Below are positions 19,692 through 33,654 of a stretch of DNA of 42,757 nt, in pieces (position 1 is the stretch's first letter; the number at the start of each line of letters is the position of its first letter). Location: assembly GCA_014859735.1 (NCBI GenBank), contig JACUTR010000003.1:1-42757 (forward strand), in the 5' to 3' direction. The notes under the pieces were generated by a model. The model made no database searches. It was not told the DNA's origin and saw only the letters and a program-made list of their open reading frames with translations. This stretch comes from Candidatus Methanophagales archaeon (GTDB lineage: Archaea > Halobacteriota > Syntropharchaeia > Alkanophagales > Methanospirareceae). The translations under genes were made by a program, and so were the position numbers.

Positions 19692-20582
19692 ATGGAGGAG
19701 CGAATTCGTAAATGTCCAGAATGTAATTCTAAAAATATAGTAACCGATTCCAAGCGTGCAGAACTGTACTGTGCTGATTGTGGGGTGGTAATAGCGGAGA
19801 ATATCGTTGATCTCGGCCCTGAATGGCGTTCCTATGATGGGGAACAAGCTGCTAAAAGGATAAGAACAGGGCCTCCTATGAGTTATAGAATACATGACAA
19901 AGGGCTGGGCACACCGACGCCCGGGTTGCCCGCTCGAACAAAACGATTACGAGGGATTAGTATAGACTCCGGTGATAAAACGCTTGCCCTCGCACTCGTT
20001 GAGATAGACCGAATGGCATGTGCACTGAAGCTTCCCAATAACATCAAGGAGGAGACCTCAGTATTATACCGGAAGGCAATGAGGCACAATTTAATTAAAG
20101 GACGAAGTATCGAGGAATTGGTTTCAGCGATGTTGTATATTACGTGCAGGCAGTATGAAGTTCCACGAACACTGAAAGAGATTGCTGAGGTCTCAAGGAG
20201 CCCGTTAAAAAAGATACGAAGGGCGTATATCTTTCTCTTAAGAAAATTGGGGATAAAGCTTGCACCGGCTAACCCTGCACGCTACATCCCGCGCTTCTGC
20301 TCTAAACTTGGGTTAAGTGAGGAGATAAGGGAAAAAGCAACAGAGATACTCAAGGATGATGAGGGAACCGGAGTGGCAAAGGGATGGGGACCGATTGGAA
20401 CAGCAGCGGCTGCGATTTATATCGCCGCGGTTTTAAGTGGCGAAAAAATAACAGAGAAGGAGATAGCCAAAGTTGTCGGGACAACCGAGATCACCATTCG
20501 GGATCGATACAAGGAATTGGTGAAGCGATTAAATATAACGGGGCTTCGCCCCGTTGACCCCGAAAAACCTGTAAGGGTTTAA
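19692..20582 (+). CDS. tfb: Transcription initiation factor TFB (TFIIB homologue)
   Basis: Recruits RNA polymerase to TATA/BRE promoters with TBP. The 296 residues contain an N-terminal zinc ribbon (CPECNSKN...YCADCG, about 8-32), the B-reader/B-linker region (GPEWRSYDGEQ), and two cyclin folds (about 100-190 and 195-285) including TAAAAIYIAAVLSGEK and EKEIAKVVGTTEITIRDRYKEL. ATG 19692 follows GAGGTGATGATAA. Homologues usually end a few residues after RYKEL; here the chain continues TGLRPVDPEKPVRV, encoded by a repeat element (20536-20583). The repeat provides the last codons and the stop, so the original end appears to have been replaced. Confidence 0.95.
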   Translation: MEERIRKCPECNSKNIVTDSKRAELYCADCGVVIAENIVDLGPEWRSYDGEQAAKRIRTGPPMSYRIHDKGLGTPTPGLPARTKRLRGISIDSGDKTLALALVEIDRMACALKLPNNIKEETSVLYRKAMRHNLIKGRSIEELVSAMLYITCRQYEVPRTLKEIAEVSRSPLKKIRRAYIFLLRKLGIKLAPANPARYIPRFCSKLGLSEEIREKATEILKDDEGTGVAKGWGPIGTAAAAIYIAAVLSGEKITEKEIAKVVGTTEITIRDRYKELVKRLNITGLRPVDPEKPVRV

Positions 20583-20583
20583 T
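20536..20583 (+). repeat. GC-hairpin repeat, copy A (overlaps the 3' end of tfb)
   Basis: A 48-nt unit made of two hairpins: AACGGGGC-TTC-GCCCCGTT, and a shorter one around CCTGTAAGGGT. It matches copy B (24439-24486) at 47 of 48 positions by eye. It is read through in frame as the last 15 codons and stop of tfb. Confidence 0.85.
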
Positions 20584-20637
20584 CTTCTTCCATCACACGC
20601 CTCTCGAGAAAGTAAATCATTGGGAATGGGAACTAAC

Positions 20638-20726
20638 TAACGGGGCTCCGCCCCATCACGGGCTCCGCCCGTGCCCCTGCATCGTGGGCTCCGCCCACGT
20701 CCCCGAAGACCCTGTAAGGGTTTAAT
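20638..20726 (+). repeat. GC-hairpin repeat, copy C (expanded, three GC hairpins)
   Basis: It begins TAACGGGGC and ends CCCTGTAAGGGTTTAAT like copies A and B, but has three successive hairpins, each with the core GGGCTCCGCCC (20640-20655, about 20658-20671, about 20683-20699). It lies between the convergent tfb and glycosyltransferase genes, where hairpins followed by T-rich DNA could help end transcription. Confidence 0.8.
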
Positions 20727-20818
20727 TCAAAGATTGATATGCTATTGGGGCAGCGGGAATAGATGTGTGAACGTAAACTACCAACTCCTTTTATTAGACC
20801 TGTTTTTAGCACGTCCAC

Positions 20819-24438: not shown

Positions 24439-24486
24439 TAACGGGGCTTCGCCCCGTTGACCCCGAAAACCCTGTAAGGGTTTAAT
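24439..24486 (+). repeat. GC-hairpin repeat, copy B (leader of the glycan operon)
   Basis: Two hairpins: AACGGGGC-TTC-GCCCCGTT and ACCCT-GTA-AGGGT. It is nearly identical to copy A. Relative to the minus-strand operon it lies in the 5' leader, ending 12 nt before the ATG at 24427, where the folded RNA could affect translation or transcript stability. Confidence 0.85.
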
Positions 24487-31215: not shown

Positions 31216-32394
31216 TCAGAATCTCTTCATATAGCGATGCTCGACGAACTTCTTTAACCGGTATGCAAAGACCTTAAACACCATTCCACCGAAATACAGC
31301 ACTGCTTTGTCATCACCGAGCGATATAAGAGCTTTTGGGTTCTGTATCGTATTCTTTGGCCTGTATCTCTTCAATTTCTCCCCTTTCATTGTATATAAAG
31401 AATAATATTTCTTTGGTAAAGCGTTCTTTTTGAAAGAAAGGTTTTTTATCGTTCTTATTATATTCTCCGCCGCTGCTCTACCCTGCCCTTCCGCCTCCTC
31501 GACATTCTGGCCGGCACGAACACCCTCGCGCTCGAAGTAGACGGTATCCCCGACTGCAAATACATCATCCATACCCTCTACACGGAGATAAGAGTCCACT
31601 TTGAGCCATCCCTTCACCTTTGGCAGATCGAGTATCTCAAGAAGACGGTTGGGTTTTATCCCTGCCGTCCAGATAATAATATTGTAGGGCAGTTTCTTTC
31701 CATCTTTGAATGTAATCTCCCCCTCGCTCACTTCTTGCACTGCTGTTTCCGTCAATATCTCAACACCGCTATCAGAAAGGAATTTACGTACATAGATGGC
31801 TACGTTCTCTTTTGGAAGAGCAGGCAATATCCGCGGCATCATCTCGACAAGCGATATTCTTGCGCGAGCTCCCCTATCCTTGAAATAGTCAACCAATTCA
31901 CCGGCAACCTCTATCCCGGTCAATCCGGCACCGATAACCGCAATGCTGCTCTCCTTTGAGTAATCAAGCGTATCAAGCGCATTCTTTGTCTCAATCGCAC
32001 CGTTCATGGTATTAACCGTGTATGACCGCTTTTCTGCGCCGGGTATTCCGAAGAATGTCTGTTCAGCACCGATGGCGATCACGAGAAAATCGTACGGTAT
32101 ATCCCGCGCGTCATCTTCGGCGGTTGCTTTAGTCTTCACCTTTTTAGCCTTAACATCAATATTTACAACCTCCGCCTGTATGAATCCCGCACCGAGTTTC
32201 GTTGCGAATTTCTTTAAATCGTGGGATATCGCTTCGGGTGTAACTTTTCCACTCAAGAGCTCGGGATATGCCGGCGGGTAATCAAATTGTGGTGTGTGAT
32301 CAATCATAGTAATATCGAGCTCTTTTGCCTCTTTTCGGAGCGTGCGTGCAACTTCCACGCCACCGAATCCACAGCCCAGCACAACAACGTTCAT
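31216..32394 (-). CDS. FAD-dependent NADH dehydrogenase (NDH-2-like) / pyridine nucleotide-disulfide oxidoreductase
   Basis: A 392-residue two-dinucleotide-binding flavoprotein. Seen: N-terminal VVLGCGFGGVEVARTLR (FAD); IAIGAEQTFFGIPGAE; second Rossmann motif SIAVIGAGLTGIEVAGEL (NADH); VFAVGDTVY; and the C-terminal membrane-proximal basic helix (FKVFAYRLKKFVEHRYMKRF). It could oxidise NADH with a membrane quinone, or be a related sulfide:quinone or CoA-disulfide reductase-like enzyme; redox-active Cys pairs are not evident, favouring NDH-2. ATG 32394. Near residue 330 the chain contains NLSFKKNALPKKYY, encoded by a palindromic repeat that also occurs outside this gene. It is convergent with ubiA. 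Confidence 0.85.
   Translation of the reverse strand: MNVVVLGCGFGGVEVARTLRKEAKELDITMIDHTPQFDYPPAYPELLSGKVTPEAISHDLKKFATKLGAGFIQAEVVNIDVKAKKVKTKATAEDDARDIPYDFLVIAIGAEQTFFGIPGAEKRSYTVNTMNGAIETKNALDTLDYSKESSIAVIGAGLTGIEVAGELVDYFKDRGARARISLVEMMPRILPALPKENVAIYVRKFLSDSGVEILTETAVQEVSEGEITFKDGKKLPYNIIIWTAGIKPNRLLEILDLPKVKGWLKVDSYLRVEGMDDVFAVGDTVYFEREGVRAGQNVEEAEGQGRAAAENIIRTIKNLSFKKNALPKKYYSLYTMKGEKLKRYRPKNTIQNPKALISLGDDKAVLYFGGMVFKVFAYRLKKFVEHRYMKRF
31408..31444 (-). repeat. AT-rich palindromic element, copy R1 (in frame in the NDH-2-like gene)
   Basis: A 37-nt unit that differs from R2 (33608-33643) only by one extra G. On the coding (minus) strand it reads AACCTTTCTTTCAAAAAG then AACGCTTTACCAAAG, giving LSFKKNALPKK. 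Confidence 0.85.
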
Positions 32395-32476
32395 GGTAAG
32401 TAAAACAATATCAGCGTCTACCTATCTATCTCTATGTAATGTAAAAAAACCTTTTCTAACAGATTTGCATCACTCC

Positions 32477-33580
32477 ATGAGGATGACCATCGAAGAGGAG
32501 ATCAAGAACATAGAGGATGAGCTCAGGGAAACACCATATAACAAGGCAACCCAGCACCACATCGGACGGCTCAAAGCGAAACTCGCCCGGCTCAAGGATG
32601 AGCTGCAAAAACAAGCAACAGCAAAATCCGCGGGCAAACGGGAAGGATATGCGGTAAAAAAATCAGGGGATGCTACCATCATAATGGTGGGATTTCCATC
32701 GGTCGGTAAATCAACGCTGCTCAACTGCCTCACGGGCACCACTGCTGAGGTTGCGGCTTATGATTTCACCACGCTTGAAGTGATTCCCGGTACGCTCCGG
32801 TATAAAGGTGCACGACTGCAATTTCTTGATGTCCCGGGGCTTATTCAGGGTGCAGCGGCAGGACGGGGGCATGGCAAGGAGGTATTATCAGTGATGCGAA
32901 ACGCTGACTTGATCCTTATCCTCGTCGATGTCCTTCAACCGCAGCAGTACGATACACTGGTAAAGGAGTTATATGATGCGGGCATTCGAATTAATACCAA
33001 ACCTCCTGAGGTGGGCATTCATAAAGCAAGTAGAGGAGGAATTACCATAGACCGCACCGTTGATCTCGATCTTGATGACAAAATGATCAAAGCGGTGTTA
33101 GCAGAATACAAAATACACAACGCGGAGGTTCTGATACGAGAACGCATCACACTCGATGAGCTTATTGATGCAGTTATGGGAAACCGGAAATACATCCGTG
33201 CACTCACCGTCATAAACAAGATAGATCTGGTGGATTCTGAAGGGCTTCGGAGATGCATGGAGCGATTTCCTGACGCAGTTCCAATCTCTGCCACTGTCGG
33301 CATAAACATTGGTGCACTGAGAGAAAGGATCTACAATGGGCTCGAATTCATGTGCATCTATATGAAGCCGCGGGGTGCGTCACCGGATATGGATAATCCA
33401 CTGGTTATCAAACGGGATTCTACGGTTGCTGATGTCTGTTCGACCATTCATCGTGACTTCATTGAGAAGTTCCGATACGCACGCATCTGGGGCAAGTCCG
33501 TGAAATATGGTGGCCAGCGTGTCGGTCTTTCGCATGTGCTTGCGGACGGAGATGTGGTGAGCATCGTGGCACGGAAATAA
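32477..33580 (+). CDS. DRG-family GTP-binding protein
   Basis: Archaeal member of the Obg/DRG subfamily, probably involved in translation or ribosome function. The 367 residues contain an N-terminal helical hairpin (ELRETPYNKATQHHIGRLKAKLARL), the G domain with P-loop GFPSVGKSTLLNC, switch region TTLEVIPG, DVPGLIQGAA (G3) and NKIDL (G4), and a C-terminal TGS domain (VADVCSTIHRDFIEKFRYARIWG). The 46 residues before ATG 32477 in the ORF-track frame are leader sequence: homologues start near this Met. ATG 32483 is a close alternative. It is divergent from the NDH-2-like gene. Confidence 0.93.
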   Translation: MRMTIEEEIKNIEDELRETPYNKATQHHIGRLKAKLARLKDELQKQATAKSAGKREGYAVKKSGDATIIMVGFPSVGKSTLLNCLTGTTAEVAAYDFTTLEVIPGTLRYKGARLQFLDVPGLIQGAAAGRGHGKEVLSVMRNADLILILVDVLQPQQYDTLVKELYDAGIRINTKPPEVGIHKASRGGITIDRTVDLDLDDKMIKAVLAEYKIHNAEVLIRERITLDELIDAVMGNRKYIRALTVINKIDLVDSEGLRRCMERFPDAVPISATVGINIGALRERIYNGLEFMCIYMKPRGASPDMDNPLVIKRDSTVADVCSTIHRDFIEKFRYARIWGKSVKYGGQRVGLSHVLADGDVVSIVARK

Positions 33581-33607
33581 ACATTTTCCAAATCCCAATT
33601 AAATAAG

Positions 33608-33643
33608 TTTCTTTGGTAAAGCGTTCTTTTTAAAGAAAGGTTT
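33608..33643 (-). repeat. AT-rich palindromic element, copy R2 (intergenic, before dapB)
   Basis: A 36-nt copy, nearly identical to R1, lying between the DRG stop and the dapB TATA box. Its minus-strand reading would give KPFFKKNALPKKLI then a stop, although no gene is there. Confidence 0.85.
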
Positions 33644-33646
33644 ACT

Positions 33647-33654
33647 TATAAATA
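33647..33654 (+). promoter_or_regulatory. TATA box of dapB
   Basis: TATAAATA is centred 26 nt before ATG 33676, predicting a leaderless transcript. It starts only 3 nt after the R2 repeat. Confidence 0.55.

Follow-up and report, generated by a model that had tools for sequence, protein, structure and literature searches.

Did the repeat that overlaps the end of a gene for archaeal transcription factor B (tfb) originate in that gene, or did it enter the gene from elsewhere? The question arises in a window of 42,757 nucleotides (the whole stretch of DNA that was analysed), which is contig C92 of genome G000, a genome of 1.68 Mb and 94% completeness from a methane-eating archaeon whose closest named relatives are ANME-1 / Methanophagales MAGs. 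This window genome was compared with three congeneric genomes (G001, G002, and G003) and about 32 further genomes of the family. The features at the tfb end and the second copy of the repeat are:

19692..20582, + strand: tfb, archaeal transcription factor B, an ORF of 296 aa with native codons 1-282; codons 283-296 and the stop are repeat-derived
20537..20581, + strand: copy A, a palindromic element of 45 nt with two hairpins, sense to tfb; net +43 bp relative to the empty site, with a native CG lost
20580..20582, + strand: present tfb stop TAA, TA from the element and A from the native flank, by comparison with the empty site
20582..20640, + strand: fossil native tfb tail, DLLPSHASRESKSLGMGTN and a stop (TAA), 57 nt, untranslated now, its first codon without its G
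24440..24484, + strand: copy B, 45 nt, intergenic, also found in G003

A repeat search placed 20536-20583 and 24439-24486 in one family with 98% identity (47/48), their starts 3,903 nt apart. The pair described in the earlier note is real, and BLAST returns 38 matches at E<=1e-3 in the window genome, many more than could arise randomly. The repeat unit is 45 nt long (AACGGGGCTTCGCCCCGTTGACCCCGAAAACCCTGTAAGGGTTTA). Copy A does supply the protein tail as that note claimed, in a somewhat smaller share than the 15 codons and complete stop given there: it encodes the final 14 residues and contributes TA to the stop codon, the last A being native flank. Copy B is flanked on both sides by minus-strand genes and precedes an ORF resembling UDP-sugar dehydrogenase by 12 nt, and its placement in a non-coding leader was a fair description. 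Copies A and B are nearly identical, so the pair alone gives no direction, and it leaves room for the reading that tfb was the original home of the repeat, from which it spread, or that the tail is an ancient TFB feature. Unrelated repeat pairs of the window lie at 1905-2180 and 31408-33649 (111 nt at 75%; 42 nt at 83%).

The tfb product matches the Pfam families of TFIIB repeats and Zn_Ribbon_TF (TFIIB zinc ribbon), and with its zinc ribbon and two cyclin-like TFIIB repeats it belongs to the archaeal TFBs. The ORF ends in ...RLNI-TGLRPVDPEKPVRV-TAA, where the tail TGLRPVDPEKPVRV is read from copy A, and the sequence-derived peptide at the insert junction is ..LNITGLRPVDPEKPVR. Sisters G003, G002, and G001 carry the empty site TTAAATAT-CG-ATCTTCTTCC (with substitutions in G001), and the window at the same site reads TTAAATAT-(45 nt)-ATCTTCTTCC. 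In the closest sisters TFB continues from ..YKELVKRLNI into DLL..., and the tail TGLRPVDPEKPVRV is absent from all ~70 ANME-1 TFB homologues compared. Downstream of copy A, the fossil tail matches DLLPSNASRESK.. of G003 and DLLSTPVSRESKSVEIGTS / ..SRESKSVEIGTS of G001. Because three sisters have empty sites, ~70 TFBs lack the tail, and a fossil of the native tail persists downstream, sequence comparison confirms the direction given in the earlier note, namely that the repeat invaded a pre-existing tfb. The same observations make a native or ancient tail highly improbable, and we rejected it on the evidence of the sister genomes, since secondary losses would be needed. The comparison of TFB C-termini in relatives revealed no lineage with the same tail.

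The frame of copy A holds 14 codons and then TAA; therefore, TFB would have lost 19 native residues and gained the repeat-encoded tail. The 19 native C-terminal residues replaced by these 14 are variable and disordered. The tail had been thought to extend beyond the usual TFB end, which is not the case: the protein has 296 aa in the window, 298, 289, and 301 in the sisters, and 298-306 in others (range 289-306), and a native tail of similar length was replaced. Solved TFB cores align to residue 282 at most, which is the exact entry point of copy A. Codons 1-282 have a dN/dS of 0.02-0.06 relative to the sisters, indicating strong purifying selection, and the repeat-derived tail is predicted to be disordered (pLDDT <50 from residue 286). 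This tail is probably neutral. TFB was also assumed to be an essential factor; the window genome contains another two TFB genes of full length (76% and 57% identical), and therefore this tfb need not be essential. Shortly before the likely start of the second TFB gene (76% identical; L107:1396-1457, contig C26) lies a compound element of the family, and this element lengthens the apparent ORF.

The palindromic family to which copy A belongs is specific to ANME-1. Its 15-nt core CCCTGTAAGGGYTTA occurs exactly 54 times in the window genome (about 55 core-bearing copies), 82 times in G002, 96 times in G003, and 18 times in G001. Of the 36 family genomes 25 contain it, as does 1 of 23 genomes outside the family, and the reversed control gave 0 throughout. 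Each element contains one GC hairpin, a spacer, and a 3' hairpin, to which further hairpins may be appended, and one element may nest entirely within another; the length is 42-46 nt and modular up to ~105 nt. Each strand folds into a pair of hairpins (z -2.6 to -3.8). The hairpin reads ..AACGGGG.. in type 1 and ..TGTGGGG.. in type 2, the element ends are TAACGGGG and GGGTTTA, and a T precedes the element at 28 of 29 distinct type-1 sites. Rfam gave 0 matches for the element up to E=1. Nested elements were also seen within genes (L199, L200), in Nnr of G001 and in an uncharacterised gene of G003, with every step a multiple of three bases. Half elements, consisting of the 3' hairpin alone and read as KPLQG, occur in enolase of G000 (L219:2614-3903) and GyrA of G030 (L262:762-2759); these are decayed or partial insertions.

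About half of the element copies are within genes. Among the ~55 core-bearing copies of the window genome, ~20 are inside long ORFs and ~5 form C-termini; the internal set, which includes four relaxed-core copies, numbers 24, and Pfam domains were found at 21 of the ORFs or insert sites. The hosts in the window genome are:

Internal copies: CTP synthase; Y-family polymerase DinB (two inserts); threonine synthase; chorismate synthase AroC; TruA; TruD
Internal copies: NAD(P)HX epimerase/dehydratase; PolD DP2; a ThiI/NFACT protein (two inserts); an AsnB/diphthamide-synthase fusion; RACo
Internal copies: Pus10; TraB; DUF1015; arginyl-tRNA synthetase ArgS; an HdrA-like protein; enolase (half element)
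Internal copies: a MobA-like transferase; a PLP-dependent decarboxylase truncated by the contig end
C-terminal copies, including: TFB, an L30e-like protein, PfkB kinase, and GHMP kinase

The invasion of tfb, regarded as unusual in the earlier note, is thus real and at the same time one among two dozen or more coding insertions genome-wide. The inserts encode peptides of 14-28 aa in frame, such as the predicted xKPLQGFRGQRGEAPL, and the sequence-derived junction peptide of AroC is ..RARNVSKPLQGF... At clean empty/filled pairs with sister DNA (DinB at two sites, threonine synthase, AroC, CTP synthase, PolD, and others), the net inserts are 42, 45, 81, or 84 bp, and no target-site duplication was found at these pairs, where 0-3 target bases are lost. 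In solved homologues the inserts map to gaps between matched blocks (CTPS 142/145, DP2 417/426). The host genes have dN/dS values of 0.07-0.34 relative to the sisters, indicating purifying selection, and therefore they appear to be still functional. From these sequences we infer that the inserts are translated and mostly neutral. The insert in the MobA-like NTP transferase (L218:3898-4545) may not be neutral, as it interrupts the N-terminal LAGG..RF..K nucleotide-binding loop, the place least likely to tolerate it. Two other genera are alike, with hosts MetRS, another class I aaRS, RtcA, GyrA, prephenate dehydratase, MoaA, and WecB. We disregarded as spurious the long ORFs that run in other frames across genuine genes (e.g. 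sense over CTPS, TraB, and AroC).

Type 1 is always free of stops in only one of the six frames, the antisense one whose codons begin two bases ahead of the element; for type 2 there are three such frames. Type-1 internal copies use the always-stop-free frame. Of 24 internal copies, 20 are antisense in phase 2, three antisense in phase 1, and one sense; against an expectation of 1/6, the 20/24 gives a binomial probability of ~1e-12, which is partly ascertainment, as internal copies were recognised by their open frame. This phase bias shows what survives, not an insertion preference. Some inserts are common to the window genome, G002, and G003 (AroC, TruA, DPH6, and CTP synthase), those at the DinB N-terminal site and in threonine synthase are shared with G001 and missing from closer sisters, and others are private. 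The detailed comparison relied on fragmented MAGs, which is what an assembly or binning artefact would call for; identical inserts in sisters that were assembled independently, including those shared with G001, leave next to no probability for such an artefact.

Taken together, we consider it very probable that mobile twin-hairpin palindromes have spread through ANME-1, both between and inside genes, surviving in frame or at 3' ends, and that copy A invaded tfb as one of them. The element would insert after a T without target-site duplication and with a loss of 0-3 target bases, as seen at the clean sites. Most genic insertions would presumably be lethal or purged. Internal survivors would be those in which the element is free of stops and the net length is divisible by three, so that the host protein, if the insert is translated, gains 14-28 residues; at 3' ends the element would merely exchange the protein tail. 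Copy A would have entered tfb in the sense orientation where the folded core ends, behind codon 282. A hairpin fragment inserted through repair would suit the small target losses, although this is speculation. A mobilising enzyme was not found: searches for Y1 transposase (PF01797) gave 0 matches in G000 and G001, both incomplete MAGs, and the element is not near any scanned Y1 locus of the relatives.

Two other explanations would give the element a function or leave the proteins unchanged. The GC hairpins, and the copies at the ends of genes such as L30e, PfkB, and GHMP kinase, could suggest a functional 3'-end or terminator module selected at gene ends, tfb included. Such a module is unlikely, as copies in both orientations also precede start codons or lie midway through coding domains, sisters lack many of the copies, and there is no T-tract past TTTA; a pure terminator role was rejected because of the copies in mid-gene and upstream of genes. 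The element is also a stable twin hairpin, and conserved enzymes are hit, some near functional loops, which is what one might expect if inserts were removed from the mRNA (like a mini-intron whose ends resemble a bulge-helix-bulge) or skipped by the ribosome like mitochondrial 'byp', with the proteins unchanged. Ribosome bypassing of inserted hairpins is known elsewhere. Removal needs neither open frames nor lengths divisible by three, and the inserts show both; neither a constant exon junction nor matching codons for take-off and landing were noticed by eye at the listed sites; and the tfb insert, at net +43 bp, simply terminates the protein. We therefore regard removal or bypassing as quite unlikely.

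The spread of invading palindromes resembles what has been described for Rickettsia palindromic elements (RPEs), of which close to half form in-frame fusions within ORFs (PMC10969869). Like RPEs (PMC10969869 and PMC3733652), the ANME-1 element is short palindromic mobile DNA with many copies, about half in ORFs, in frame in unrelated core genes and apparently tolerated. Intragenic REPs in several bacteria also strike pseudouridine synthases and DNA-synthesis and repair genes, as stated in PMC3733652. The element further resembles the GTAG/CGTC-tagged REPs in being a small palindromic repeat, single and clustered and sometimes intragenic, and differs from REPs, as described in PMC3733652, in having no GTAG end tag and no evident RAYT / Y1 transposase. 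Archaeal MITEs, listed for Sulfolobus and Haloquadratum in PMC10969869, are likewise non-autonomous short archaeal repeats. Unlike these MITEs, the ANME-1 element shows no target-site duplication or long terminal inverted repeats, is much shorter, and is commonly in frame within proteins. RPE and ANME-1 hosts both include pseudouridine synthases and DNA-synthesis or repair genes. The two differ in that the ANME-1 element is archaeal, unrelated in sequence, 42-46 nt rather than ~150 nt in length, and growing by nested modules; the CGTC end tag of RPE / CGTC repeats is not on it. The Wolbachia palindromic element WPE, which PMC3733652 mentions, is also a palindromic repeat of one lineage, in its case a bacterial one.

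The ANME-1 family shows dispersed palindromic copies and in-frame insertion in unrelated genes with empty sites in relatives. Judged by sequence, it is RPE-like in behaviour and neither RPE nor REP by descent, because GTAG or CGTC end tags and an evident RAYT are lacking. What had been described in Rickettsia and certain other bacteria is now seen in a new domain of life. The review passages that list archaeal MITEs name no archaeal protein-coding palindrome, and neither such a palindrome nor an ANME-1 precedent was found in the open-access literature. We lean towards the view that a recently active ANME-1 family, without a Y1 (RAYT-type) transposase or target duplication and stop-free in selected frames, wrote 14-28-residue peptides into core proteins of replication, transcription, translation, and biosynthesis, and that these are the first protein-invading palindromes described in Archaea, with an origin independent of RPEs. 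A selfish DNA family would then repeatedly add peptide segments to conserved archaeal proteins such as a replicative polymerase, CTP synthase, and a general transcription factor, which bears on the origin of new protein segments, a subject that has so far relied on bacterial cases. Since sister species differ in carrying the filled or the empty allele, direct tests can address how far inserts are tolerated, when they arose, and whether some became domesticated. ANME-1 gene calls include repeat-encoded tails and inserts, by which annotation can be misled.

A third copy of the family lies directly behind the fossil tail of tfb, in what is a hot spot for the repeat:

20639..20724, + strand: copy C, compound, 86 nt, three GC hairpin modules with the common 3' end
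20725..20759, + strand: remnant of a purH-type IMP cyclohydrolase gene, last codons (SKIDMLL.Q.E-stop); the gene is intact in G003 at L102:1480-1989

The first AA of copy C completes the original tfb stop TAA. The purH-type gene is present directly 3' of tfb in G003 and also in G005 and G032, which belong to another genus, and it gave no match in G000, G001, or G002. In both the window and G002, the element's 3' end is fused to the last purH codons, with the junction at an identical base in the two (..GGTTTAAT joined to TCAAAGATTG). Copy C thus occupies a gene-deletion scar (window 20638-20759). G002 retains only an 8-nt element scar, the source of the TFB ending ..PSQV-stop there, and therefore the element family terminated TFB in that genome too. 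In many ANME-1 genera, an archaeal SRP RNA gene begins directly 3' of tfb, as confirmed in L086:3457-3771 (Rfam RF01857, 196.8 bits).
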